A stretch of 64,000 nt of DNA from a bacterium (lineage in GTDB: Bacteria > SM23-31): the NCBI GenBank assembly GCA_028278455.1, contig JANQEH010000058.1, positions 1-64,000 on the forward strand, given 5' to 3'. The notes under the pieces were generated by a model. That model searched no databases. It was not told the origin of the DNA and worked only from the letters and a program-made list of their open reading frames with translations. How positions within the stretch are numbered: position 1 is the first letter of the stretch; each line of letters starts with the position of its first letter. Shown one piece after another: positions 5,460-25,145 of this stretch. A program made the translations under genes and the position numbers.

Positions 5460-6275
5460 TCAGGAATGATCGATTGATCCAACATAGATCTTGATCTGGT
5501 AAGCGATAAAGCAGATCCCCGCAACGAGTATGATCGAAGCTCCCGATGTTATATTCAAATAATAGGAAATAACAAGTCCTGTGAAAGTAAAAAGGGAGGC
5601 AAGAATGAATGACCAGAACATCATTTTACCAAGGGATGATGAAAATTTTTCAGATATATATGTCGGGATCGTCATCAAGGCTATTACAAGTATCAGGCCG
5701 ACCACTCTTATTGTCATGACAACAGTCAGTGCTACGAGGATAAGCATCATTATATACAGCAGTTTTACAGGTATTCCTCGCAGAGAGGCGAATTCCTCGT
5801 CATAAGACATTGCGAGCAGGTCTTTATAGTAGAAAACAACACACAGAATTATAATAATATCGAGCATCAGCATAAGAAAAAGATCTGATACGGGAACGGC
5901 GAGGATGCTTCCGAATAGATAGCTCAATAGGTCAACATTATATCCGGGAGTGAGATCGATCAGGAGGATACCCACTGCCATGCCAACAGCCCAGAGCACA
6001 CCTATTATAGTGTCTGACCTATGCTTGCTTTTCATAGTGATAATACCTATCAGAAAAGCGGCAAGAATGGAAAAAAATCCGGCTCCGATAAGCGGTGAGA
6101 ATCCGAAATATACTCCTAAGCCTATTCCTCCGAATGCGGAATGAGCAATCCCACCTGAAATAAAGACTATTCTGTTCACCACAACCAGGCTGCCGATCAA
6201 TCCGCATGCTATGCATGTAAGCAATCCCGCTAGAAGGGCGTTTCGAATGAATTCATATTGCAGAAGTTCCGGCAA
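5460..6275 (-). CDS. znuB: Zinc/manganese ABC transporter permease (ZnuB-like)
   Basis: The 271-residue polytopic membrane protein of the ABC-3 family forms the translocation channel for Zn2+ or Mn2+. Seven to eight hydrophobic helices are visible. Characteristic segments are 'VVVNRIVFISGGIAHSAFGGIGLG' near the N-terminus (given here by its family role) and 'LLLIDLTPGYNVDLLSYLFG' around residues 103-122. It follows the ATPase gene by 13 bp and precedes the RDD gene by 11 bp. The upstream metal-responsive regulator and the His-rich binding protein make zinc the most likely substrate. Confidence 0.9.
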   Translation of the reverse strand: MPELLQYEFIRNALLAGLLTCIACGLIGSLVVVNRIVFISGGIAHSAFGGIGLGVYFGFSPLIGAGFFSILAAFLIGIITMKSKHRSDTIIGVLWAVGMAVGILLIDLTPGYNVDLLSYLFGSILAVPVSDLFLMLMLDIIIILCVVFYYKDLLAMSYDEEFASLRGIPVKLLYIMMLILVALTVVMTIRVVGLILVIALMTIPTYISEKFSSSLGKMMFWSFILASLFTFTGLVISYYLNITSGASIILVAGICFIAYQIKIYVGSIDHS

Positions 6276-6288
6276 GTTAGATCTCCAA

Positions 6289-7068
6289 TTACTTCAGGTT
6301 CATACCATCTACAGGTGGACGTTCCGGAAATTCCTCGAGGGGACAGATATGTTCAAGTGAGAATCCGAAGGTTTTCCTGAGCATTTCGGAAGTTACATGG
6401 GGAGCTTCATGAAAGTACAGCTCCCTGTGTACACAGGCTATTTTATTGACATACTCCGTTAGTACATTGATATTATGACTTACGATAAGGATAGTCAGTT
6501 TTTTATTTAGTTCTTTCAATACATCAAAGAGTATCATCTGCCCCGGAGGATCGAGACTCGCTGTAGGTTCGTCAAGAATGATTATCTTCGGATCGGTCGC
6601 AAGCGCCCTGGCAATGAAAACTCTTTGTCTCTGCCCCATGGATAGATCGCCGATCCTTGCATCCCTGTTTTCCCACATCCCGACCTGCCTGAGGACCTCC
6701 CGCGTAATACCCGCGTCTTTTCTGGTGAATCTCCATCCTTCTCTCCTGCCGCCTATCCTCCCCATCATGGTAACATCCCTTACAGTAATAGGAAAATTTT
6801 CATTTATGGATGTATTCTGTGGGACATAACCGATAGAGCTGGACACCTGCGACGGTTTCCTCCCTAACACATTGACGGTTCCCTTCTGAGGTTCGATCAT
6901 ACCGAGAATCAGCTTCACCAATGTAGTTTTTCCGCTGCCGTTTGGTCCTATTATACCAATAAAATCCCTGTCATATACAGAAAATGTAACATCCTTCAAT
7001 GCAATTTCACCGTTGTAGGAGAAAGAGACATCTTTAAGTTCTATTTCAAGGTCGGACATTGCCTGCAA
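6289..7068 (-). CDS. znuC: Zinc/manganese ABC transporter ATP-binding protein (ZnuC-like)
   Basis: The 259-residue ABC ATPase energises import through the ZnuB-like permease. Walker A is 'GPNGSGKTTL' (about residues 42-51), the Q-loop is at 'GYVPQNTS', the signature is 'LSMGQRQRVFIARAL', Walker B is 'IIILDEPTASLD' and the switch histidine is in 'LIVSHN'. 'IGPNGSGKTTLVKLILG' and 'FPITVRDVTMMGR' are characteristic of the metal-chelate importer subfamily. It begins 3 bp after the binding-protein gene. Confidence 0.93.
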   Translation of the reverse strand: MQAMSDLEIELKDVSFSYNGEIALKDVTFSVYDRDFIGIIGPNGSGKTTLVKLILGMIEPQKGTVNVLGRKPSQVSSSIGYVPQNTSINENFPITVRDVTMMGRIGGRREGWRFTRKDAGITREVLRQVGMWENRDARIGDLSMGQRQRVFIARALATDPKIIILDEPTASLDPPGQMILFDVLKELNKKLTILIVSHNINVLTEYVNKIACVHRELYFHEAPHVTSEMLRKTFGFSLEHICPLEEFPERPPVDGMNLK

Positions 7069-7071
7069 TCC

Positions 7072-8013
7072 TTACTTCATGGAATCTCTGAATTTCTTTG
7101 CGACTATATTCATATTCTCAAGCCAGTTTTCAGCAAGGGGATCCGCTGTTATTACTTCACCACCTATCTCATTAGCTATCATTGAAACTGTCTGAGGGGA
7201 GATCTGCGGCTGTACAAAGATTATCCTGATTTTGTTAGTTTTCGCATAATCTATAAGTTTAATAAGATCTCTAGGTTTTGGTTCCTTACCTTCGATCTCG
7301 ACAGGTATCTGACGCAGGTCGTATGCCTTTGCGAAATACCCCCATGCAGGATGAAAAACGATAAATTCCTTCTTAATGTTCCCATCGCTGAACATATTCT
7401 TCAATTCGGTATCGAGAACATCGATCTCTTCTATAAATGCATCATAGTTTGTTCTGTATACATTTTCATTACCGGGATCAATCTGAATCAGGTTCTGCAG
7501 AATGATCTGCAGCTGCTCGGATACAAGTGGCGGGGAAAGCCATATATGAGGATCATGCCCACCTTCTTCTCCATGATGGTGATGTTCATGTCCACCCTCT
7601 TCACTATGATCGTGACCCTCATGTCCTCCTTCTTCTTTAGAGATCTCAAGCTCGACCTGCTGCATGGCGATCTTTTCAATATTCTCTCCAGTATGTATGA
7701 TCTTCATATCAGGATTAGCTGAGGAGAATCTTTCCAGCCATGAATGCTCAAAATCAATACCGATTGCGAAATACAGTTTCGACCGGGATAATTCTACCAT
7801 CTGCTGAGGCCTGGGTTCATATATATGAGGATCTCCACCGGGAGGGACCATAACCATAGCGTCCACAAGATCACCGCCGATCTTCTCAACGAAGAATTTC
7901 TGAGGCAGGATGCTTACCGAAACTTGCAGTTTACCTGATTCCGGGGTATTGCCGGTGCAAAAGACGGAAACCACAAAAATGCAAACTAATACAAGAATTA
8001 TTTTCCTCTTCAT
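7072..8013 (-). CDS. znuA: Periplasmic zinc-binding protein (ZnuA-like)
   Basis: This cluster A-I metal-binding protein delivers Zn2+ to the ZnuBC importer. I prefer the ATG at 8011-8013 (313 residues): it has AGGAAAG upstream, puts the signal peptide (MKRKIILVLV, hydrophobic to about residue 19) at the N-terminus and avoids a 23-bp overlap with fur that the upstream ATG at 8046 would cause. Cys19 may be lipidated, but 'SVFC' is an atypical lipobox. Metal ligands are visible in 'GGDPHIYEPRP', 'HDPHIWLSP', 'FHPAWGYF' and 'TADPLAENW'. A His/Glu/Gly loop with more than ten histidines lies between the first two, typical of zinc rather than manganese proteins. Confidence 0.93.
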   Translation of the reverse strand: MKRKIILVLVCIFVVSVFCTGNTPESGKLQVSVSILPQKFFVEKIGGDLVDAMVMVPPGGDPHIYEPRPQQMVELSRSKLYFAIGIDFEHSWLERFSSANPDMKIIHTGENIEKIAMQQVELEISKEEGGHEGHDHSEEGGHEHHHHGEEGGHDPHIWLSPPLVSEQLQIILQNLIQIDPGNENVYRTNYDAFIEEIDVLDTELKNMFSDGNIKKEFIVFHPAWGYFAKAYDLRQIPVEIEGKEPKPRDLIKLIDYAKTNKIRIIFVQPQISPQTVSMIANEIGGEVITADPLAENWLENMNIVAKKFRDSMK

Positions 8014-8023
8014 ATTCTTTCCT

Positions 8024-8443
8024 TTACTTACAATCAGGACATTCACCGCTCATTACAATTGATATGGTGCTTGTCCTGAATCCTTTAGCCATTTCTATTA
8101 ATATTTTTTTTCTCTCCTCATCTATATCAGGCAGGCAGAAATATCTTCCGCAGGAACTGCATTTAAAATGAGGATGAGAATTCGAATTATTTTTTAAAAT
8201 TTCATAGAAAGAGATCCCGGAGACATCATTTATCTCATGGACCAAATTAGTTTCCCTCAGTACTGCAAGCGTTCTATAAACGGTCGCAAGGTCAACACTT
8301 TTTCTGCTGTTTACCTGTCTGTAAAGCTGATAAGCATCTAACGGCTCATCACTAATTATGAGCTCTTCAATTATCGCGACTTTCTTTCTCGTCGGCCTGA
8401 TATTTGCGTTTTTAAGATGTTCCGGGATGTCTTTAAGTTTCAT
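8024..8443 (-). CDS. zur: Fur-family metalloregulator, probably Zur
   Basis: The 139-residue winged-helix repressor carries the recognition helix around residues 49-64 ('VDLATVYRTLAVLRE'). Two CxxC pairs (Cys95/Cys98 and Cys135/Cys138) form the structural zinc site, and 'SHPHFKC' (His90, His92) contributes to metal sensing. It is the first gene of the znuACB operon, which argues for zinc sensing; PerR or Fur remain possible by sequence alone. No Shine-Dalgarno sequence precedes the ATG, and a -10 box ends only seven bases before it, so the mRNA may be leaderless. A palindrome over the -35 box suggests autoregulation. Confidence 0.9.
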   Translation of the reverse strand: MKLKDIPEHLKNANIRPTRKKVAIIEELIISDEPLDAYQLYRQVNSRKSVDLATVYRTLAVLRETNLVHEINDVSGISFYEILKNNSNSHPHFKCSSCGRYFCLPDIDEERKKILIEMAKGFRTSTISIVMSGECPDCK

Positions 8444-8760
8444 AATTCAATTATACGAAATTTGCAAAAGATTTGCAATTCATTTGTTTTTCCGGGATCA
8501 TTGAAAAATACGCAAAATAATTATAGCCGATTCTTTAAGCAGTGCTTTAACAGCCTTTTTTAACTTATTGTATTATAAGCAAATTCATTTTCAGAAATTG
8601 AGCAATTAACTGAAAATTAATCCATAATTAATAATTAATTAACAAAAATATCGTAATTTACCGGTGTCCGAATTAGAGTATTATATGGTAGGATCTTTTA
8701 TACCAATAGTGCCTGTTCATATCGGTTTAATCTATCGACTGCTTAATCAAAGGAGAATAA
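8444..8760. other. Divergent intergenic region (zur / PHP-glycosyltransferase)
   Basis: This AT-rich interval contains the zur promoter/operator at 8450-8478. The remainder, up to the AGGAG ribosome site of the gene at 8761, shows no coding frame; promoter-like TATTATA stretches for the rightward gene cannot be placed with confidence. Confidence 0.5.
8450..8478 (-). promoter_or_regulatory. zur operon promoter with overlapping operator palindrome
   Basis: On the minus strand TTGCAA (8473-8478) and TATAAT (8450-8455) are spaced by exactly 17 bp. A perfect 7-3-7 dyad, TTGCAAA-AGA-TTTGCAA (8462-8478), covers the -35 box and half of the spacer. Its position and the downstream fur/zur gene make it the likely autoregulatory operator, though it does not match a Zur box I can name. 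Transcription would begin within a base or two of the zur ATG (8443). Confidence 0.65.
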
Positions 8761-10668
8761 ATGGCTAAGGTTGACCTTCATAATCATTCAAAATACTCTG
8801 ATCGTCCCTCTGAATGGTTTTTACAGAAGATCGGCGCGAGTGAGTGTTATTCTGAACCTGATTTTTTGTATACTGAGGCAAAAAGGCGGGGAATGGATTT
8901 CGCTACCGTTACTGATCATAACAAGATAGATGCATGTCTTCTGCTCAAAGAAAAGTACCCTGACAAAGTGTTTACCGGAGTAGAGGTGACAACGTATTTC
9001 CCGGAAAACAACTGCAAAGTTCATATCCTTGTTTACGGATTAATAGAGGAAGATTTTGAGACAATTCAAAGCATCAGGAAAAATATATATGAACTCAGGC
9101 TTTTTATTAAGGAAAGTGGATTGGCATATTCAGTTGCCCACCCAACCTACAGTATTAACAACAGGCTGAACGTTGAGCTGCTTGAGAAGCTGATTCTGAT
9201 GTTCGATGTGTTTGAAGTGATTAACGGTGCGAGGAGCAGGCTGCATAATGTTACTCTTTTTAAAGCGTTAAAGAGCCTGACTCCTAACAAGATAGATAAA
9301 CTATATGAAAAGTACAAAATAGAGCCAATAAGCTCTGATCCTTGGAAAAAAGGCTATACAGGCGGATCAGATGATCATGCCGGTATTTTCATTGGCAAGA
9401 CCTATACCTATGCGAAGGCGGACACTCCTGAAGAGTTTCTCGAGAAACTTAAGGATAAGTATTCGCTGGCATGCGGCAGACACAATGATTATAAATCGCT
9501 GACATTTACATTTTATAAGATCGCATATGAATTTTCAAAGCATAATTCATCCAGGATTCCTAAGTCGATCATGTCCGAGATAACGGAGTCTATTTTCGAG
9601 AATAAATCTCTCAGCCTGATCAACCTGGCAAAGATCTCGATCCCCAAGTCCCTATCGAAGAAGAACGGCAGCATGGCAAACGAGGCGCTTATCGATATAC
9701 TGGAGACTTTCAAAAAGAATGGAAAGATCAGAATTGAGGATAAGTTTGATATTTTGTATGATAAGATCACCGTAATTGCAGATGATCTTATGAAAATGTT
9801 TTTCAGCACTTTTGAAAAGGATATTACAAAGGGTGATATTTTCAACCTCGTTAAGAATATTTCATCAGCTTTGCCGGCATTCTTTCTTTCGGCGCCATTT
9901 TTCTCAACATTTTTCCACCTGTACAGAGGAAGAGAGCTGATAAAGCATCTCGAAGCGAATTACTTAGGTGAAATAAGTGATAAGAAAAGAAAGATACTCT
10001 GGTTCACAGATACTCTGGCAGATATTAACGGTGTCAGCGATACCCTGAAGAATATAGGATGGCTGGCGAAAGAGAAACATCTCGATATTACATTAGCTAC
10101 GTCTTTATGTGAAGATGAAAACAAAGAAGGACTTCCACCCAATGTAATGGATATCAAACATATTCATGAGTTTAACCTGCCCTATTATGAGCAGTTCAAG
10201 ATGAAGATCCCTTCAATTCTCGATGCGATAAAGATCATCGATGAATATGAACCCGACATGATTTATATTTCGACTCCCGGTCCGGTAGGTATGCTGGGCC
10301 TTCTTGCATCAAAGCTGTTGGATATAAAATGCATAGGAGTCTATCATATAGATTTTATGGGCCCGGCAGATGAAATTATCGGTAACGAGGGATTATCGGT
10401 TTTTCTCAGATCGGCAGAAAAGTGGTTGTATTCTTCCTTTGATGAGGTTTTGGTACCTGATAAAGAATATTTTGACCTGTTATGTGAACGGGGTATCAGC
10501 AACTCAAAACTGAAAATGTTTAAACAGGGTGTTTCCCTGAATGATCAATTATTAAATGAAAACGGAAAACATTTTAATATTAATGAGGCTGTCAGACGTA
10601 TAATATCCAAAAATCCTGACGAGACAAAAAACGTTACTGATAAATTTGATTCGGTAAATGCAGTATAA
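8761..10668 (+). CDS. PHP-domain protein fused to the N-terminal half of a GT-B glycosyltransferase
   Basis: The 635-residue protein begins with a PHP phosphoesterase-type domain (about 1-215; 'DLHNHSKYSD', 'TDHN', 'AHPTY', 'GSDDHAG' are metal-ligand motifs). A helical linker follows, then a GT4-type N-terminal Rossmann domain from about 410 ('ILWFTDTLADINGVSDTL', 'PDMIYISTPGPVG', 'YHIDFMGPADE'). Translation stops shortly after 'MFKQGVSL', where fused relatives normally continue into the nucleotide-sugar-binding half, so the donor-binding domain is missing. AGGAG lies eight bases before the ATG. A complete GT4 enzyme starts 17 bp downstream and may supply the missing function. The gene opens a probable glycolipid locus. 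Confidence 0.82.
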   Translation: MAKVDLHNHSKYSDRPSEWFLQKIGASECYSEPDFLYTEAKRRGMDFATVTDHNKIDACLLLKEKYPDKVFTGVEVTTYFPENNCKVHILVYGLIEEDFETIQSIRKNIYELRLFIKESGLAYSVAHPTYSINNRLNVELLEKLILMFDVFEVINGARSRLHNVTLFKALKSLTPNKIDKLYEKYKIEPISSDPWKKGYTGGSDDHAGIFIGKTYTYAKADTPEEFLEKLKDKYSLACGRHNDYKSLTFTFYKIAYEFSKHNSSRIPKSIMSEITESIFENKSLSLINLAKISIPKSLSKKNGSMANEALIDILETFKKNGKIRIEDKFDILYDKITVIADDLMKMFFSTFEKDITKGDIFNLVKNISSALPAFFLSAPFFSTFFHLYRGRELIKHLEANYLGEISDKKRKILWFTDTLADINGVSDTLKNIGWLAKEKHLDITLATSLCEDENKEGLPPNVMDIKHIHEFNLPYYEQFKMKIPSILDAIKIIDEYEPDMIYISTPGPVGMLGLLASKLLDIKCIGVYHIDFMGPADEIIGNEGLSVFLRSAEKWLYSSFDEVLVPDKEYFDLLCERGISNSKLKMFKQGVSLNDQLLNENGKHFNINEAVRRIISKNPDETKNVTDKFDSVNAV

Positions 10669-12991: not shown

Positions 12992-14473
12992 ATGAAAGTA
13001 CTGCTTGTTTATCCGCAATATCCGCACACATTCTGGAGCTTTTCCTATGCATTGAGATTCATAGGCAAGAAAGCAGCGCTGCCGCCAATGGGTCTTCTTA
13101 CCGTTGCGTCACTTTTGCCTGAAGAGTGGGAGTTGAAGCTGATCGATCTTAATGTTGCTCCTCTAAAATGTGAAGATATCAAATGGGCCGATATTGTATT
13201 TATCGGTGCGATGAGCGTCCAGAGGGTGTCTGTAAATGCAATAATTAAAAAATGCAGAGAGCTTAACAGGAAGATCGTAGCTGGAGGACCGCTATTCACT
13301 TCAGAAAAGGAGTGTTTTCCTGAAGTTGATCATCTCGTATTGAATGAGGCTGAGCTCACAATGCCTGAATTTATTTCCGATCTGAACAGAGGAGATGCAA
13401 AAAGGATCTATGAAACATGCAGCTTTGCAGATGTGGCAGATACTCCGATACCCAGATGGGATCTGATAGATTTCAAGAATTATGTAACCATGTGTGTTCA
13501 GTATTCACGAGGTTGCCCTTATGACTGTGAATTCTGCGATATTACGGTTCTCTACGGACGAAAACCGCGTGTAAAATCAGCTGTGAAGATGATCGAGGAG
13601 CTTGATTTTCTATATAATAAAGGATGGAGGGGGAATATATTCTTTGTCGACGATAACTTTATTGGCAATAAGAGAATGCTAAAAAATGACTTAATGCCCG
13701 AGTTGGTGAAATGGATGAAGAAAAAGAAATTCCCGTTTACATTTCAAACACAGACATCGATAAACCTTGCAGACGATGACAGCCTTCTTAATAACATGAT
13801 AGAGGCAGGATTTGAAACGGTTTTTGTTGGGATAGAGACTCCCGATGAGACTAGTCTTCAGGAGTGTGGCAAAAATCATAACGTGGGAAGAGATCTTATT
13901 ACCAATGTTAAAAAGCTCCAGAATTCCGGACTGCAGGTTCAGGGCGGTTTCATTATCGGTTTCGATAACGATAAAAAAGATATTTTTTCCCGGGTAAGCA
14001 ATTTTATAAATGACAGCGGTATAGTAACTTCGATGGTTGGATTATTGAATGCTCTTCCGGGAACTAAACTATACAAGAGACTGAAAGAAGAAAACCGGAT
14101 ATGTGATGACACATCCGGGGATAATACTGATTGCTCGATGAATTTCCTGCCCAAGATGGACAGACAGACATTGATAGAAGGTTACCGAAGGCTCATAAAA
14201 GAAATTTATAAACCCGAGGTATACTACAAAAGGGTTAAAACCTTTCTGAAGAATTACAAATCCGGTAGACGAAAAAAATTCAGGCTGCCGAAAGGATATA
14301 TTCGAGCCCTGACGATGTCATTTTATAAACTCGGTTTACGAAAGGGTGTGAGAAGGCATTTCTGGAAGCTCATGTTTTGGACGCTCATAAGAAAACCTAA
14401 AATGCTTCCCCAGGCTATCACGATGGCGATCTACGGTGCAAACTTCATGAAGTATTTCGATATCACGAAATAA
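12992..14473 (+). CDS. B12-binding-domain radical SAM protein (DUF4070 type)
   Basis: The 493-residue class-B-like radical SAM protein has an N-terminal cobalamin-binding Rossmann domain (about 1-140, starting 'MKVLLVYPQYPHTFWSF'). The radical SAM core carries Cys175-x3-Cys179-x2-Cys182 ('RGCPYDCEFCDI') for the [4Fe-4S] cluster, and a C-terminal DUF4070-like extension follows ('LLNALPGTKLYKRL'). The N-terminus closely resembles the family containing the hopanoid methylase HpnP, so C-methylation or another radical modification of a lipid is plausible but not shown. The ATG has no good ribosome site and follows the flippase-like gene by 127 bp. Confidence 0.87.
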   Translation: MKVLLVYPQYPHTFWSFSYALRFIGKKAALPPMGLLTVASLLPEEWELKLIDLNVAPLKCEDIKWADIVFIGAMSVQRVSVNAIIKKCRELNRKIVAGGPLFTSEKECFPEVDHLVLNEAELTMPEFISDLNRGDAKRIYETCSFADVADTPIPRWDLIDFKNYVTMCVQYSRGCPYDCEFCDITVLYGRKPRVKSAVKMIEELDFLYNKGWRGNIFFVDDNFIGNKRMLKNDLMPELVKWMKKKKFPFTFQTQTSINLADDDSLLNNMIEAGFETVFVGIETPDETSLQECGKNHNVGRDLITNVKKLQNSGLQVQGGFIIGFDNDKKDIFSRVSNFINDSGIVTSMVGLLNALPGTKLYKRLKEENRICDDTSGDNTDCSMNFLPKMDRQTLIEGYRRLIKEIYKPEVYYKRVKTFLKNYKSGRRKKFRLPKGYIRALTMSFYKLGLRKGVRRHFWKLMFWTLIRKPKMLPQAITMAIYGANFMKYFDITK

Positions 14474-15511: not shown

Positions 15512-16405
15512 TTATTTTCTGCTATCTATAAGATTCCTCATTTTTTGAATATGTTCCGGTGTGGTACCGCAGCAACCGCCGATTATCTCGACACCACATT
15601 CAATAAGTTCCGGCATCAGCTCTTCAAAGAAATCCGGTGATTCAGAATAATAAAGTTCTCCCCCCTTTGTTTCGGGGATACCGGCATTTGACTGGATGAT
15701 CACCGGTATAGAGGTGGCATTTTTGAATTCCTTTCCGATCTTCACCATCTTTTCAAGGCCGTTCCCGCAGTTGGATCCGACAATATCAGCGCCCGCTCCT
15801 GATAATCCTTCTACAGCCTGACCGATCGTGGTACCCATAATTGTATAAAAACCACGAGGAGTTTCATCAAATGTCATAGTTGCGATTATAGGTATGTTTA
15901 TACTGATTTCCCGGGCGGCTTTAATTCCAATCGTTATTTCATTCAGGTCTGTAAATGTTTCAAAGCTGAGAAGATCAGCTCCTTCTTCGACAATTATACT
16001 GCACTGCTCAAGGTATCCTTGATAAAGATCATCCGGATCTGCATCCCCGTAAGGTTTAAGGATCTTACCTGATGGACCTACAGAAGCAGAAATGAATGCC
16101 TTATTACCGACGACTTCCTTTATAATTTTCATACCTGCCCGGTTGATCTCTTCAGTCCTGTCCGATAATCCGAAATCGGATAGTTTCATAGGTGAAGCAC
16201 CGAAAACAAATGCATGGATAATCTCAGCCCCGGCATCGAGATACTGCCTGGCAATATCCCTGATCCAGTCTGGTTTGCTTATGTTCAGCATATCCGGGCA
16301 ATCACCAGGCTGCAAACCTCTCTGGATAAGCATTGAGCCGAATCCGCCTTCCGACAGCAGGATTTTTCTTTCTTTTAATTCCTTCAGAAAGCTGTATTCT
16401 TTCAT
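15512..16405 (-). CDS. Homocysteine S-methyltransferase (MetH N-terminal-like)
   Basis: The 297-residue TIM-barrel enzyme corresponds to the first module of cobalamin-dependent methionine synthase and to betaine-homocysteine methyltransferase. The zinc thiolates are visible as Cys213 ('GSNCGNG') and Cys278-Cys279 ('GGCCGTTPEHI'), with 'LLSEGGFGSMLIQRG' at the N-terminus. It should transfer a methyl group from the adjacent corrinoid protein to homocysteine, giving methionine. It starts 2 bp after the corrinoid-protein gene and is the last gene of the four-gene methyl-transfer operon. Confidence 0.88.
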   Translation of the reverse strand: MKEYSFLKELKERKILLSEGGFGSMLIQRGLQPGDCPDMLNISKPDWIRDIARQYLDAGAEIIHAFVFGASPMKLSDFGLSDRTEEINRAGMKIIKEVVGNKAFISASVGPSGKILKPYGDADPDDLYQGYLEQCSIIVEEGADLLSFETFTDLNEITIGIKAAREISINIPIIATMTFDETPRGFYTIMGTTIGQAVEGLSGAGADIVGSNCGNGLEKMVKIGKEFKNATSIPVIIQSNAGIPETKGGELYYSESPDFFEELMPELIECGVEIIGGCCGTTPEHIQKMRNLIDSRK

Positions 16406-16407
16406 AT

Positions 16408-17046
16408 CTACTTTTTCCCTGTCAATTCCTTAACCAGTTCTACAGCTTTACCCGCATCGAATCCGTAAGCATTTACACCTATCTCATCGGCGAAGTCTTC
16501 TGATGCTGGCGCACCACCTATAATGGTTTTAACTGCGTCCTCGAGTCCGTTCTCCTTAAGGAGTTCAACAACTTTTTTCATAACGGGCATTGTAGTTGTC
16601 AGCAGCGCAGACATTCCAATCACTCCGGCATCTTCGGTTTTTGCCGCTTCAACAAATTTTTCTGCCGGGACATCCTTACCGAGATCGATCACATCAAAAC
16701 CTGCGCCTTTCAGCATTATACCAACAAGGTTTTTCCCGAGATCGTGCAGGTCACCGTGAACAGTACCGATAACGACTTTACCCTGTGTAGGAACTTTTTC
16801 CTTGATGAAAAGCGGTTTCAGGAGGTCCATACCGGCATACATAGCTTTAGCAGCAAGTAAAACTTCCGGCAGGAATATCTCGTGTTTCCTGAACTGTTCT
16901 CCGATTACGTTCATTCCTGCGATCAGGCCGTTATCAAGGATATCCTGTGCAGGGATATTTTCGTCTATAGCCTGTTTTGTCAATTCGGCTACCTGTTCGT
17001 CTTCACCCTTTTGCAGTGTAGATGAAATCCGGTCTAATAATTCCAT
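16408..17046 (-). CDS. Methyltransferase corrinoid protein (MttC/MtbC/MetH-B12 type)
   Basis: The 212-residue protein has an N-terminal four-helix cap (about 1-85) and a B12-binding Rossmann domain with the base-off motif D-x-H-x2-G at Asp99-His101-Gly104 ('HGDLHDLGKNL'); His101 is the cobalt ligand. The later 'IGGAPASEDFADEIG' completes the fold. It shuttles the methyl group between the MttB-like and homocysteine methyltransferases. Spacing to its neighbours is 17 bp upstream and 2 bp downstream, so co-expression is near certain. Confidence 0.92.
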   Translation of the reverse strand: MELLDRISSTLQKGEDEQVAELTKQAIDENIPAQDILDNGLIAGMNVIGEQFRKHEIFLPEVLLAAKAMYAGMDLLKPLFIKEKVPTQGKVVIGTVHGDLHDLGKNLVGIMLKGAGFDVIDLGKDVPAEKFVEAAKTEDAGVIGMSALLTTTMPVMKKVVELLKENGLEDAVKTIIGGAPASEDFADEIGVNAYGFDAGKAVELVKELTGKK

Positions 17047-17063
17047 AGCATTTATCCTGTAGT

Positions 17064-17810
17064 TTAAATTGTCTGGATCCTTTTCATTCTATCTAAACAA
17101 GATTCGTGTTTACATTCTTTACAGTATTCGAAATTATTGTCAAATATATGTATTTCTTTGTTTCCCCCTACGAGAACACCGGAAACAGATTTCAGGGGCG
17201 TCATTAGATAACTATCGTTAAGAGTTACTCCTATCAGCCCGGGTTTCAGGCGATCGAACAGTTTTTTCTGGCCGCTTATATGCCACCCGCAGTACCCGGG
17301 GCTGTAGCTGAGTACGAATTCACCCGGGTTAAGCTTTTCTTCACTGTCGAGATAATCGCGATAAAACTCCTCAAAGACCTCAGAAGCCTTATCCGCAGCA
17401 AGTGAGGCTACGGCATCCAGCATCGAGCCAAGTGCATAATCTCCCTCATTGAACATCTTCTCAATCCGGGAGCTGACATCTTCTCCCATTGTCAGAACGT
17501 AAAGCGCCAAATGATCAGATTTCGGATATATTCTTTCGAGAATTACATCTCTAATGTTCTTTCCTTCACCAACAAAAGTGTTTTCAAACTGATTCAGGGA
17601 TACTTCTTCAATAACACCTTTTGGCTGAGCGGTTCTCCTGAATATGTCGACACCTTCAGCCAGAAGTACTCTTATCCTCTCAGGTACTTCTACACCTTTC
17701 GGAATACCCTGATGCAGAAGAACATCCCTGCCGTCAGGATTTATTTCCGCTATCTTAAAATCAATGATCTGCTTCAATTTATAACCTTTCCGGGAGTGTA
17801 TCCTGGCCAT
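17064..17810 (-). CDS. Stand-alone MetH-activation-domain-like protein
   Basis: The 248-residue protein resembles the C-terminal AdoMet-dependent reactivation domain of methionine synthase. 'YSPGYCGWHISGQKKLF' (169-185) corresponds to the MetH 'PGYP..PDH' element, and 'TLNDSYLMTPLKSVSG' to 'LTESFAMxPxxSVSG'. Stand-alone activators of this kind exist, for example beside the truncated MetH of Thermotoga. It should reductively remethylate inactive cob(II)alamin on the corrinoid protein. Unlike the MetH domain it ends with Cys230-x2-Cys233-x4-Cys238, a possible metal or Fe-S site. It overlaps the MttB-like gene by 32 bp. Confidence 0.82.
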   Translation of the reverse strand: MARIHSRKGYKLKQIIDFKIAEINPDGRDVLLHQGIPKGVEVPERIRVLLAEGVDIFRRTAQPKGVIEEVSLNQFENTFVGEGKNIRDVILERIYPKSDHLALYVLTMGEDVSSRIEKMFNEGDYALGSMLDAVASLAADKASEVFEEFYRDYLDSEEKLNPGEFVLSYSPGYCGWHISGQKKLFDRLKPGLIGVTLNDSYLMTPLKSVSGVLVGGNKEIHIFDNNFEYCKECKHESCLDRMKRIQTI

Positions 17811-19236
17811 ATCTCTTTGCTTCTGCCTCCATCAGTTTGACCAGTTCATTCCTAATATCATCGGATATTTCCGACGGAGTATATTCAGAAATAAGCCTTT
17901 TCACCTCATTATTTGCTCTGTCTTCCAGGAACAATGCACCTTCTTCCTGCCATCTCGCCCTGTTTGCCCTGTCGATAACCGTTCCGGGGAAATAATGCTC
18001 ATCCCGAAGGTACTTTCTTGAATGCTTTGAAATCAAGAGATGCTGTTCCTGCAGCAGCTCTTCGAAATGCGGCAGTGATGGAAAATCCTCTTTTGGTTCA
18101 ATTCCCTGAACAAGCCTTAGTGTCATACCGCAGATCTCGTTATCGACGATCAGCTTCTCGAGGCTCTGGCAGCTTTCGAAATCAAGCATACCCGGCCCTG
18201 AGAGGTTATTTATTCCTGCAAGAGCAGCAAGTGTAGCGCCTATTCCTGTTTCCAGACCTGCCTGTGCATCGAGTTGTTTTGAATCACTCAATGAAATATA
18301 TGCCTGAGTAGGAAGCCCGAGATATTTTCCAATCTCGTTATTTGCACAGTCTATCATCATTGTCTCTATAGCCCCCATAGGTGTTGTTTCGTATCGGACA
18401 TCAAAAATCGCAGGAGAACCGCCGTACAGCATCGGTGCGCCCGGATTTGTCAACTGGCTTATCACGATTCCGCTTAGAGTCTCAGCGGTATGCTGAATGA
18501 CTGTCCCGGTCAGAGTTACAGGAGCCATGAAACCTGATAGCGGCATGGAGATGAATTCGACCGGGATTCCGTATTTTGCGCAGTCGACAACATTCTGCGA
18601 GGTAACATCACTGAATTTTAAAGGTGAGGTCGGACAGCAGGAAAATATTGCCAAAGGTTTTTCTTTCAAAGCTTTTTCGGAACCCCTGACGGCAAGCTGA
18701 AAATCCTTCATTACCTCGAAAGACTCGATTGTAAAGGTGCCTGTGACAACAGGCTTTTCGCAGTATAGGAGACTCAGGAACATTCTATAACTATCGGATA
18801 TCTGCGCTGCAACATCAGATGGTATGAATGCTGTACTCTGGGATGCTATATAGGGAAGCTGATTCAATATTTTCGCATAATCTATATAATCCTGAGTCAG
18901 CGGTTTTCTAAGTTTTTTCGTTTCATGATCGAGGATATTCAGTGCTGCTGATCCCGGGGTAAAGTGGACATTATCTCCTGAGAAATCATGTGTCTGGTTC
19001 CCATGTATATCATATAATTTAAATTCACCCTCAGCCGATTTTAGAGCCTTGTTTATCACCTCTTCGGTGAAATTCACATGCATTTTTCCCATATCGACAT
19101 TGCATCCATGATCGGAGAGCATCTCCAGAACACTTTTATTATGAAGCTCTACACCCAGTTTGCATAAGATCTCAAATGCCTCAGCTAAAATGTCCATTAT
19201 GAGTTGTTCAGTGAGAAATTTAACTTTCGGGCGCAT
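17779..19236 (-). CDS. MttB-superfamily (non-pyrrolysine) methyltransferase
   Basis: The 485-residue protein belongs to the trimethylamine methyltransferase superfamily, TIM-barrel enzymes that move a methyl group from a quaternary or tertiary amine to a corrinoid protein. Family text includes 'HFTPGSAAL', 'YGGSPAIFDVRY', 'SLSDSKQLDAQAGLE' and 'LAALAGINNLSGPGML'. The frame runs without an in-frame amber codon, so this is a non-pyrrolysine member like glycine-betaine enzymes (MtgB), not a trimethylamine enzyme. The substrate is unknown; betaine, carnitine, proline betaine or similar compounds are candidates. GGAG eight bases before the ATG supports the start. It is the promoter-proximal gene of the operon. 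Confidence 0.9.
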   Translation of the reverse strand: MRPKVKFLTEQLIMDILAEAFEILCKLGVELHNKSVLEMLSDHGCNVDMGKMHVNFTEEVINKALKSAEGEFKLYDIHGNQTHDFSGDNVHFTPGSAALNILDHETKKLRKPLTQDYIDYAKILNQLPYIASQSTAFIPSDVAAQISDSYRMFLSLLYCEKPVVTGTFTIESFEVMKDFQLAVRGSEKALKEKPLAIFSCCPTSPLKFSDVTSQNVVDCAKYGIPVEFISMPLSGFMAPVTLTGTVIQHTAETLSGIVISQLTNPGAPMLYGGSPAIFDVRYETTPMGAIETMMIDCANNEIGKYLGLPTQAYISLSDSKQLDAQAGLETGIGATLAALAGINNLSGPGMLDFESCQSLEKLIVDNEICGMTLRLVQGIEPKEDFPSLPHFEELLQEQHLLISKHSRKYLRDEHYFPGTVIDRANRARWQEEGALFLEDRANNEVKRLISEYTPSEISDDIRNELVKLMEAEAKRYGQDTLPERL

Positions 19237-21661: not shown

Positions 21662-23185
21662 ATGGCGATAACACTGAATGGTTCATCGCTTACGGTAAAT
21701 AAAATAGTACAAATTGCCAGAAATAATGAAAAGGTGAAACTTGATGAAGATTCTCTGACCAGAATCAGGAAATGCCGAAAGGTGATCGAGAAGAAGATCG
21801 AGGCTGGTGAGATCATGTACGGCATAAATACCGGGATAGGAGAATTTTCTGAAGTGGTCCTTACGGATGAGCAGGTCAAAGAATTCCAGAAATACCTCAT
21901 ATATAACCATTCTGCGGGTATAGGCGATCCGGCGCCTGTTGAGTACGTCAGGGGAGCGATGGCAGGCCGGATAAATGTTCATGCGCACGGTATGTCCGGA
22001 TGCAGGCCGGAGATCACACAAACCCTGATTGATATGCTGAATAAAGGTGTAACCCCTGTAGTTTGCGAAAAGGGTTCTGTAGGAGCCTGCGGTGATCTGG
22101 CGCCGATGTCCCAGATTGCCCTGCTTCTTATGGGAGAGGGTGAAGCATTTCTTAACGGAGAGAGGCTTCCGGGAAAGACAGCAATGGAACAAGCCGGGAT
22201 ACCCATCCCGGGACTTAAGGCCAGAGACGGCCTTTCAACGATAAATGGCTCAAATCTGTTAACGGCCATGAGCGCAATACAGCTTTATGATATGAACAGG
22301 TGGCTAAAGCAGGCAGAGATCGCATGCGCTATGTCTCTTGAGGCGCTGTATGCTAATATGAAACCATATGATGAGAGGCTCCATAAAGTCCGCGGATTCA
22401 ATGGAGCCGTCAGGTCTGCCGGAGCGATCATGAAATGTATTGAGGGCAGCGATCTGCTTTCCGGTAAAGTCAAAACTAAGGTACAGGATGCTTATTCAAT
22501 GCGATCAACTCCTCAGGTTATAGGTGCTGCGCATGATTCGATAGCATTTGCCAGAACACAGGTTGAAACAGAATTGAATGGTGTTGGCGACAATCCTATT
22601 TTTTTCCCTGATGAAGACCTTACTCTGACAGGCGCTAATTTCCAGGGAACGCCTGTCTCACTTCCAATGGAAAATGCCGGTGCTTCGATAACTATGGTCA
22701 GTGTATTATCCGAACGGAGACTCAACAGGCTTACTAATCCGGCATTGAGTGTCGGCCTTCCCCCGTTTCTGACTAAAGGGGCGGGAATGTTCTCGGGTAT
22801 GATGCTTAGCCAGTATACGGCAGATATGCTGATAACTGAGCAGAGAATTTTATCGGCTCCTGCATCTACAATGTCAATACCGGCGGCGGCCGACCAGGAG
22901 GACTTCGTGTCAATGGGGATGAATACGGCCTTGAAAAACCATCAGATTCTGGATAATGCTTACGGTATACTCGGAATAGAATTCATGGCAGCAGCACAGG
23001 CTCTTGACATGAGGGATTTTAACACCGGAAAAGGGGTTGAAACTGCAAAACAAGTTATTCGAAAATACGTAGAATATCTTGATGAGGATCGTCCGCTATA
23101 TGTTGAGCATAACAGGATGAAAAAGCTTGTTAAATCCTGTGAGATACTAGACAAAGTGGAAAAAACAACCGGATACCTCGGGTGA
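21662..23185 (+). CDS. hutH: Histidine ammonia-lyase with Ala-Cys-Gly MIO triad
   Basis: The 507-residue aromatic amino-acid lyase has the usual HAL length and a perfect AGGAGGT ribosome site. Tyr53 in 'MYGINTGIG' and 'NPALSVGLPPFL'/'GAGMFSGMMLSQYTA' are family elements. The cofactor-forming triad sits at residues 142-144, the same numbers as in Pseudomonas HAL, but reads Ala-Cys-Gly rather than Ala-Ser-Gly ('GSVGACGDLAPMSQ'). Cysteine is known to replace serine in the Pseudomonas enzyme with activity retained. Deamination of histidine to urocanate is the most likely reaction because an FTCD gene follows, but phenylalanine or tyrosine cannot be excluded by sequence alone. Confidence 0.88.
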   Translation: MAITLNGSSLTVNKIVQIARNNEKVKLDEDSLTRIRKCRKVIEKKIEAGEIMYGINTGIGEFSEVVLTDEQVKEFQKYLIYNHSAGIGDPAPVEYVRGAMAGRINVHAHGMSGCRPEITQTLIDMLNKGVTPVVCEKGSVGACGDLAPMSQIALLLMGEGEAFLNGERLPGKTAMEQAGIPIPGLKARDGLSTINGSNLLTAMSAIQLYDMNRWLKQAEIACAMSLEALYANMKPYDERLHKVRGFNGAVRSAGAIMKCIEGSDLLSGKVKTKVQDAYSMRSTPQVIGAAHDSIAFARTQVETELNGVGDNPIFFPDEDLTLTGANFQGTPVSLPMENAGASITMVSVLSERRLNRLTNPALSVGLPPFLTKGAGMFSGMMLSQYTADMLITEQRILSAPASTMSIPAAADQEDFVSMGMNTALKNHQILDNAYGILGIEFMAAAQALDMRDFNTGKGVETAKQVIRKYVEYLDEDRPLYVEHNRMKKLVKSCEILDKVEKTTGYLG

Positions 23186-23312
23186 TAATGATTTCCTGAA
23201 GTTGATGATGTTTGACTTTTTTTTGATTAACTTTTTTTGTAAATTTACCGACCGGGATAGAATCTGTCCGGATTAAACAGTAATCGTTTCCGAAAACACA
23301 GCGGAGTAAGAT

Positions 23313-25145
23313 ATGAGTGACAAATTAGTTGAGTGCGTTCCGAATTTCTCTGAAGGCAGGGATAAGAATTTGATCAAACAGATCACTGATGTAATCGAGG
23401 CTGTTGATAATGTAAGGCTTCTGGATGTCGATCCCGGCCCCGATATGAACCGGACGGTAGTAACATTCGTAGCCCCTCCGGAGGAAGCGAAAGAAGCCGC
23501 ATTCAGGGCAATGAAAAAAGCCTCAGAACTGATAGATATGTCAAAACACCAGGGTTCCCACCCCAGGATGGGCGCAACGGATGTATGCCCTTTTATTCCC
23601 GTTAACGGTGTCTCAGAGGAGGAATGTATACAGATCTCGAAGGATGTGGCAAAAAGAGTCGGGGAAGAGTTGAAAATCCCTGTTTATCTCTATGAGAAAG
23701 CCGCGCAAAGCCCTGACAGAGAGAATCTCGCAATAATACGTGCTGGAGAGTACGAGGCATTGGCGGCGAAGCTGAAAGATCCGAAATGGAAACCTGATTT
23801 CGGACCGGCAAAATTCAATGCAAGAGCAGGCGCCACTGTGATCGGAGTAAGGGAGTTTTTGATCGCATATAATATCAGCCTTAATACAAGAGAACCGAAA
23901 TTTGCTACGGATATTGCATTTGAGCTACGGAAAAAGGGAAGATCAGCGAGATCGCCGCATCCGGATCACCCGGTTTATCTCTGGAGAACGAATATACTTA
24001 AATATAAAGAAGGTGATTATCCTTGTGGAAAATGCGATTTTACCGGAAAAACTATAAAAGAGACTATTGATCACTGTAAGAATGAGCATGGATACGATCT
24101 TGTCGAGATATTTCAGCTTAATGATATTGATCCTGAGCATCCGGAGGGAAATTCTGTAAAGATACCGGGTAAATTCGATTATTGTAAGTCGATAGGATGG
24201 ATGGTCAAGGAGTACGACAGGGCCCAGATATCGATCAATCTGACAAACTACAAGGTTACCTCAATGCATGATGTCCTTGAAGAGGCAAGGAAACTGGCGA
24301 TAGACCGGGGGATAGTGGTTACCGGTAGTGAAATTGTCGGTATGGTGCCTTACCAGGCTTTATATGAATCGGGGATGTTTTACCTGAAAAAGCAGAACCG
24401 GTCTGCCGGAGTACCTGTCAAAGATATCCTGAATACGGCAGTACAATCTCTGGGATTGAATGATGTCTCTGAGTTTAATATCAAAGAAAGAGTACTTGGA
24501 CTCCCCAGCCATGTTGAAGATGCTCTTGTAGAGATGAAGCTGAATGATTTTGTTGATGAAGTATCGAGAGAATCAGCTGCTCCGGGCGGTGGATCAATAG
24601 CTGCGCTTGCCGGAGCATTAGGAGCTTCACTTTCTTCAATGGTAAGCAACCTCACTGCAAATAAAAGAGGTAGCTCCGATGTTGATATAATATTAAATGA
24701 AGCTGCAGAGAAATGTCAGAAAATCATAATCGCACTGGTCAAGGGAATCGATGACGATACAAATGCGTTTAATGCTTATATGGATGCCCGCAGACTTCCA
24801 TCGAAAACTGATGAGGAAAAGAAGGCAAAATTTGATGCCGAGCAGAACGGATTGAAGGAAGCGGTTTACGTTCCGATGAAGACTGCAATGTTGAGCCTGC
24901 AGGCAATAGTAATAGCAGATACTGTTGCAAAGCATGGGAATCCAAACTCCATAACAGACGTCGGAGTTGGGGCTCAAATAGCGTTTACAGGGGTAAAGGG
25001 AGGCATTTATAACGTTCTGATAAACCTGAAGGATATCAAGGATGATAAATTCAATGAGCATATGAGAAAACAATGCTCTGACCTCGAAATAGACGCAAGA
25101 GAAAAACTTAAAGGGATCGAAGAATATATTGAATCAAGAATATGA
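23313..25145 (+). CDS. Fused glutamate formimidoyltransferase / formimino-THF cyclodeaminase
   Basis: This bifunctional enzyme of 610 residues passes the formimino group of N-formiminoglutamate to tetrahydrofolate and then deaminates it. The transferase part (1 to about 370) starts 'LVECVPNFSEGRD' and has the catalytic-type His83 in 'GSHPRMGATDV'; the cyclodeaminase part (about 405-610) starts 'LNDFVDEVSRES-APGGGS'. It is longer than the animal enzyme (about 541) because of an insertion at about 211-288. That insertion carries Cys238-x2-Cys241-x12-His254-x4-His259, a C2H2-finger-like arrangement. GGAG precedes the ATG. No HutU or HutI gene is present in the window. Confidence 0.9.
   Translation: MSDKLVECVPNFSEGRDKNLIKQITDVIEAVDNVRLLDVDPGPDMNRTVVTFVAPPEEAKEAAFRAMKKASELIDMSKHQGSHPRMGATDVCPFIPVNGVSEEECIQISKDVAKRVGEELKIPVYLYEKAAQSPDRENLAIIRAGEYEALAAKLKDPKWKPDFGPAKFNARAGATVIGVREFLIAYNISLNTREPKFATDIAFELRKKGRSARSPHPDHPVYLWRTNILKYKEGDYPCGKCDFTGKTIKETIDHCKNEHGYDLVEIFQLNDIDPEHPEGNSVKIPGKFDYCKSIGWMVKEYDRAQISINLTNYKVTSMHDVLEEARKLAIDRGIVVTGSEIVGMVPYQALYESGMFYLKKQNRSAGVPVKDILNTAVQSLGLNDVSEFNIKERVLGLPSHVEDALVEMKLNDFVDEVSRESAAPGGGSIAALAGALGASLSSMVSNLTANKRGSSDVDIILNEAAEKCQKIIIALVKGIDDDTNAFNAYMDARRLPSKTDEEKKAKFDAEQNGLKEAVYVPMKTAMLSLQAIVIADTVAKHGNPNSITDVGVGAQIAFTGVKGGIYNVLINLKDIKDDKFNEHMRKQCSDLEIDAREKLKGIEEYIESRI

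Follow-up and report, generated by a model that had tools for sequence, protein, structure and literature searches.

Results

An operon predicted to couple an MttB-type donor to homocysteine

Within a stretch of 64,000 nucleotides (hereafter the window; part of contig C237 of the draft genome G000, which comprises 5.28 Mb in 318 contigs and is 76% complete), we identified an operon that probably encodes a four-component, corrinoid-dependent and folate-free methionine synthase, as judged from sequence comparison and structural models. Its genes specify an MttB-like methyltransferase, a stand-alone activation protein, a corrinoid protein and a homocysteine methyltransferase (HMT) (Table 1). As a conserved unit, this variant of corrinoid-dependent methionine synthesis is well supported. 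The tight packing reported in the initial annotation was confirmed: the genes nearly abut on the minus strand between 15512 and 19236, with the start of the activation gene overlapping the end of mttB by 32 bp and spacers of only 17 bp (activation-corrinoid) and 2 bp (corrinoid-HMT).

Table 1. Positions of the operon genes and other features in the window
Feature	Length or score	Position	Strand	Assignment
mttB-like gene	485 aa	17779-19236	-	non-pyrrolysine MttB-superfamily methyl-donor:corrinoid methyltransferase
activation gene	248 aa	17064-17810	-	stand-alone reactivation protein, MetH activation-domain fold
corrinoid protein gene	212 aa	16408-17046	-	MtgC/MttC-type
HMT gene	297 aa	15512-16405	-	MetH-type homocysteine S-methyltransferase
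PYLIS_3 (Rfam)	43.4 bits	18192-18291	-	inside mttB; non-functional as pyrrolysine element, no in-frame stop
histidine ammonia-lyase-like gene, then formiminotransferase-cyclodeaminase gene		21662-25145	+	one-carbon units to folate
B12-binding radical SAM protein gene		12992-14473	+	DUF4070 domain

The module identities, first read from motifs, agree with Pfam and NCBIfam matches. The corrinoid protein combines a cap domain (PF02607, 81 bits) with a corrinoid domain (PF02310, 96 bits). It carries the motif D99-x-H101-x-x-G104, whose DxHxxG residues are invariant in the family, and its closest PDB entries are 1y80 and, second, MttC (7xcn). HMT matches PF02574 with 210 bits, and its zinc cysteines, C213 (SNC213G), C278 and C279 (GGC278C279G), are likewise invariant. 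Its nearest PDB relative is the homocysteine (Hcy) domain of Thermotoga maritima MetH (5e-51), human betaine:homocysteine methyltransferase (BHMT) scoring 8e-17. The MttB-like protein falls within the MttB superfamily (PF06253, 247 bits against a cut-off of 25).

By analogy with the MttB superfamily, the MttB-like protein would demethylate a small methylated compound and load the methyl onto the Co(I) form of the corrinoid protein, giving CH3-Co(III). The zinc-dependent HMT, as in MetH, would then pass this methyl to homocysteine, releasing methionine and Co(I). Cobalt occasionally oxidised to Co(II) would be returned to its working state by the activation protein, a role transferred from MetH and performed by RamA in known MttB systems; the redox chemistry of this step is proposed on the same analogy.

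Conservation and co-inheritance of the four genes

Relatives of the MttB-like protein were sought in one genome per species. The search found 334, of which the best 80 were used; these share 66-77% identity with the window protein and are distributed among WOR-3, Zixibacteria, Neomarinimicrobiota, Cloacimonadota, Stahlbacteria, Planctomycetota, Acidobacteria, Aminicenantes, Fermentibacteria, Bacteroidota, Myxococcota and others. In 55 of the 80 loci, at least 3.2 kb of downstream flank made the neighbourhood evaluable. The full four-gene set was present in 39 of these 55, in 38 of them in the order of the window, and the median intergenic distances across four-gene loci are 12, 41 and 23 bp; the activation gene comes first in L047 and L049. 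The co-occurrence of exactly these four genes was thus found across phyla, and no fewer than 39 genomes, belonging to numerous phyla and mostly to uncultured bacteria, are known to have the set. When co-directional neighbours of the 80 loci were clustered, no other gene recurred beyond close kin.

Pairwise correlations of the four protein distance matrices gave rho values of 0.29-0.53 (0 of 500 Mantel permutations for each pair). Together with the co-occurrence, these correlations indicate that the four genes are not a chance neighbourhood and fit co-inheritance. Mean identity across phyla was highest for the MttB-like protein (70%) and stood at 44% for the activation protein.

The proposal that MttB stands in place of the folate module was borne out. 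No pterin module occurs in the operon, and its folate counterpart was found in loci L139 and L142, from the phylum of the WOR-3 genome G024, where the activation gene adjoins an HMT-pterin protein. At L137, a divergent mttB lies in a cluster that also holds the other three genes, arranged differently. On a single-contig WOR-3 chromosome (L075/L135; G010:C1 near 1673706), an N-terminal part of the activation protein (∼100 residues) continues in frame into PriA-helicase-like sequence, and the remaining operon genes are lost, apparently by deletion.

Homocysteine as the probable methyl acceptor

The initial annotation noted that neither a tetrahydrofolate (THF) methyltransferase nor a RamA-like activator accompanies the operon. 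This absence holds across the 76% complete draft of G000, where the sole PF00809 pterin-binding protein is MetH itself, leaving no separate THF methyltransferase, and where no PF14574 protein, and so no RACo or RamA, was found. The same draft does encode a full-length MetH of 1229 aa and a fusion of HMT with methylenetetrahydrofolate reductase (MTHFR), although no MetE was detected by Pfam search. The operon has therefore not replaced MetH in this organism but adds a route, one that would recover methyl groups and spare folate.

We extended the inventory to 45 carrier genomes including G000, searching for the MetH-activation, MetE, MTHFR, RACo/RamA, pterin-binding and homocysteine-methyltransferase families. 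In 10 of the 45, no long MetH, MetE or HMT-pterin split MetH was found (G007, G012, G014, G016, G027, G030, G032, G034, G037 and G047), and five of these ten (G007, G014, G027, G030 and G037) also gave no PF02219 MTHFR. The operon thus appears, from these inventories, to be the only identifiable methionine route in some carriers. Three carriers, G007, G014 and G015, are single-contig chromosomes, and each encodes a single PF00809 protein with the size and score of a dihydropteroate synthase (DHPS). No THF methyltransferase of known type (MtgA/MtqA) is therefore available there to take the methyl group, and HMT is the only acceptor enzyme identified in these three genomes. The lack of an alternative acceptor of known type, together with the ten carriers in which no MetH or MetE was found, makes homocysteine the best-supported acceptor.

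In G000, an unlinked gene for a 220-aa corrinoid protein overlaps that of a 340-aa UroD-family MtaA-like protein (L006; G000:C175:18920-22138), apparently another methyl-transfer pair.

A MetH-type fold for the activation protein

The activation protein matches PF02965 with 36 bits and over its second half only, which makes it the weakest identity of the four. We therefore turned to its structure. An AlphaFold model built from a 59-row alignment had a mean pLDDT of 94.6, and all 19 significant Foldseek matches in the PDB were MetH activation domains; the best, 1j6r (T. maritima TM0269), reached 3.6e-12 with a TM-score of 0.84 on the target. Since the matches are to this fold only, the model identifies the protein as a full-length, stand-alone MetH-type activation fold.

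The AdoMet (S-adenosylmethionine)-dependent reactivation put forward initially is thus upheld as to the fold; the use of AdoMet is not secured. The AdoMet-binding activation domain of MetH has the motif RxxxGY. It reads RPAPGY in the MetH of the same genome and SYSPGY in the window's activation protein, so that GY is kept and Arg is replaced by Ser; across the family alignment, the Arg is present in 28 of 59 rows. All 59 activation proteins share four invariant cysteines, one (C174) within a GYCGW loop and three C-terminal (C230-x2-C233-x4-C238), and this invariance suggests a metal or iron-sulphur (Fe-S) site. In the stand-alone activation proteins beside folate-type HMT-pterin proteins (L139, L141 and L142), the Arg is kept and the C-terminal cysteines are absent; those of L104, beside a non-pyrrolysine MtmB, and of L016, near a UroD-family gene, have both. 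We infer from this comparison that the putative metal or Fe-S centre may belong to non-folate systems.

At L104 (G034:C162:13000-22959), an operon at 5831-9526 (-) combines activation, corrinoid, MtmB-family (an open 457-aa frame) and pterin-binding methyltransferase genes; this gene content shows that a MetH-type activator would also serve THF-linked systems. L016 (G002:C31) holds a trio of activation, corrinoid and HMT genes with no MttB-like gene, beside a divergently oriented UroD-family gene, and perhaps uses another donor enzyme.

To compare activators, we examined 44 carriers with intact mttB loci, 32 with and 12 without an adjacent activation gene. Among the 12 carriers lacking the adjacent gene, 6 encode a RamA-type protein of 500-590 aa, versus 1 of the 32 with it (Fisher p 0.0008). 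The RamA-bearing loci fall in three separate MttB lineages, from Planctomycetota (L059, L062, L085), WOR-3 (L030, L032) and Neomarinimicrobiota (L022). Four of the other six carriers (G035, G036, G039, G041) encode a short activation protein at another genomic location. Such a pattern of gene content would be expected had the MetH-fold protein taken over the function of RamA. PF14574 matches of ∼650 aa in G012, G032, G034 and G035 were not counted as RamA, being probably RACo of the Wood-Ljungdahl pathway, on the basis of length and, for G012, G032 and G034, also of a nearby pterin protein. Open reading frames of the size of carbon monoxide dehydrogenase/acetyl-CoA synthase (CODH/ACS), recognised by size alone, were seen at L101.

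The MttB-like protein and its methyl donor

Against the equivalog model for pyrrolysine-containing trimethylamine methyltransferases (TIGR02369), the MttB-like protein scored 366.8 bits, under the cut-off of 525. Leu316 occupies the position of Pyl334 in Methanosarcina barkeri MttB, as a Leu does in MtgB. The match of the gene to the Rfam pyrrolysine element PYLIS_3 raised the possibility of pyrrolysine decoding, which we dropped on three grounds: the frame has no internal stop, the pyrrolysine site encodes Leu, and the same match occurs in other open-frame members of the family. PYLIS_3 also scored above its gathering threshold in mttB of L017, L023, L034, L035, L037, L054, L063, L089, L092 and L137, and the pyrrolysine position is a sense codon in the matched genes of the window and L137. 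The Rfam model thus appears to detect coding conservation and may mislead annotation.

The AlphaFold model of the MttB-like protein resembles MttB and MtgB structures (TM ∼0.8; best folds 7xcl, 2qne and 9yce) and is weakly similar to DHPS-like pterin folds. Given a mean pLDDT of only 79 and loops of low confidence, the model was not used to infer a ligand. At 29% identity, the protein is clearly distinct from MtgB in sequence; Ser96 and Ser346 replace Tyr95 and His346 of MtgB, which are equivalent to the active-site Gly110 and Tyr364 of MttB. By this alignment, the putative pocket residues that would mark a glycine betaine methyltransferase of the MtgB type are not kept.

Characterised members of the MttB superfamily use acidic quaternary amines (PMC12155760). 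The donor is probably, by analogy, a small methylated compound, either a quaternary or a tertiary amine. In the direct amine-to-homocysteine transfer initially predicted, the amine donor follows only from membership of the MttB family. Neighbouring genes were discarded as a clue to the donor, none being recurrent beyond close kin; an amino-acid-permease-like protein lies beside only 4 loci.

Comparison with known systems

The operon shares with MetH of Escherichia coli and Thermus thermophilus the homocysteine, cap/corrinoid and activation modules, with conserved zinc cysteines and DxHxxG. It differs in that the modules are separate proteins, an MttB-superfamily protein takes the place of the absent folate module, and the activation protein has four invariant cysteines and no conserved Arg in RxxxGY.

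A non-pyrrolysine MttB-superfamily donor enzyme paired with its own MtgC-type corrinoid protein is also found in MtgB-MtgC-MtgA and in MtpB, MtcB, MtyB or MthB working with MtqC-MtqA or MthC-MthA and RamQ (Desulfitobacterium, Eubacterium limosum). These known systems use THF as acceptor (coenzyme M (CoM) in methanogens) and an ATP-dependent RamA/RamQ activase (PMC12155760, PMC12478193); neither a separate THF methyltransferase nor RamA/RamQ was found in G000. Closer in principle is MtgBCDE of Ruegeria pomeroyi and other marine bacteria, where one corrinoid protein is proposed to work with an MttB-type donor as well as with homocysteine as acceptor (PMC12478193). There, glycine betaine demethylation is intertwined with a split MetH, the pterin protein MtgD is required and mtgE commonly lies apart from mtgBCD (PMC12478193), whereas the window has one tight operon with a MetH-type activator and no pterin protein. 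The split MetH of Phaeobacter inhibens likewise places MetH modules on separate genes, but retains a pterin-binding gene and has no PF02965 protein; reactivation in Phaeobacter is ascribed to two proteins, one RamA-like and one DUF1638 (PMC5764234).

Core folate-independent methionine synthases, MesA-MesD, also make methionine without methyl-folate, and for MesA-C corrinoid proteins are the predicted methyl source. They are relatives of MetE, however, with MtrA or CoFeSP as the predicted partner of MesA-C (PMC7857596), unlike the PF02574 enzyme and dedicated MttB-type donor of the window. Type 1 mlp clusters are described as carrying out corrinoid methyl transfer with no THF methyltransferase in the cluster, and a link to methionine salvage is proposed; their description features UroD-family Mlps with Ram/RACE, and names no MttB-type, PF02574 or PF02965 protein as a core component (PMC10418091). 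Among open-licence papers, we found no description of the four-gene set.

Discussion

Several observations count against a dedicated methionine synthase. The L104 operon, in which the activation protein accompanies a non-pyrrolysine MtmB and a pterin methyltransferase, means that this protein alone does not specify homocysteine. In 5 of the 55 evaluable loci mttB stands alone, and one of these genomes (L085) has HMTs elsewhere. No transporter or catabolic gene consistently linked to the operon was found among the neighbours of the 80 loci. The presence of MetH in G000 means that the necessity of the operon cannot be argued there. Each absence in the inventories rests on one Pfam model, most genomes are drafts, and MTHFR types outside PF02219 would escape the search. 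Finally, the exchange between RamA and the activation gene comes down to only three phylogenetically independent pairs and is then not significant.

The operon could instead serve catabolic demethylation with THF as the true acceptor, in the style of MtgB with MtgA or MtqA, HMT bleeding off some of the methyl as MtgE does in Ruegeria. The habit of characterised MttB-superfamily systems of passing methyl to THF or CoM (PMC12155760, PMC12478193) and the pterin methyltransferase at L104 speak for this. We nonetheless regard it as unlikely, given that no separate PF00809 methyltransferase was found in G000, that G007, G014 and G015 have only one DHPS-like protein, and that the conserved operon holds HMT and not a pterin protein. 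Even less probable is that the MttB-like protein has itself become the folate module and draws its methyl from 5-methyl-THF, a compound in which N5 with its methyl forms a tertiary amine. A ubiquitous substrate would be expected to leave the MttB-like protein the most conserved subunit, as observed, and the TIM-barrel fold is common to MttB and pterin-binding domains. Yet sequence and fold are MttB-like, G000 retains MetH alongside the operon, and the five carriers in which no PF02219 MTHFR was found lack the ordinary supply of methyl-THF.

That HMT is a lone BHMT, beside a separate mttB/corrinoid/activation unit, seems highly improbable: PF02574 does include BHMT, and PRK07534 (NCBIfam; betaine--homocysteine S-methyltransferase) gives 200 bits, but this is below the 338 cut-off, HMT is far nearer to the Hcy domain of MetH than to human BHMT, and it is linked to the other three genes in 39 of 55 loci. 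The most improbable of the readings considered is reverse flux, from methionine-derived methyl to an amine or into methylated osmolytes. Corrinoid methyl transfers can be reversible; moving methyl from methionine to an amine is uphill, known osmolyte synthesis is served by SAM-dependent enzymes, and gene neighbourhoods lend no support.

We thus favour a folate-free methionine synthase. A fuller version of it can be offered tentatively: a widespread enzyme whose unusually conserved MttB clade would use one conserved metabolite as donor, and whose MetH-fold activator would employ a four-cysteine (Fe-S) centre instead of or besides AdoMet.

If correct, the favoured reading adds a further, previously undescribed route to methionine free of methyl-folate, in which a catabolic-type methyltransferase is wired into the methionine cycle. 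Carriers without MTHFR, MetH and MetE would make methionine from homocysteine by the operon only. Metabolic reconstructions would change for uncultured lineages including WOR-3, Zixibacteria, Neomarinimicrobiota and Planctomycetota; some of these would be scored as methionine auxotrophs if the operon were overlooked. Finding an MttB homolog there would not, on its own, mean that the organism gains energy by methylotrophy. A link, open to test, between MetH-type and RamA-type corrinoid reactivation would be provided by the activation protein with its four cysteines.

Other features of the window

No riboswitch was found in the window or in 29 scanned loci, and control by methionine or B12 thus receives no such support. 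The histidine ammonia-lyase-like and formiminotransferase-cyclodeaminase genes (Table 1), a pair that delivers one-carbon units to folate, lie close to the operon on the opposite strand, and the gene for the radical SAM protein is on that same strand.

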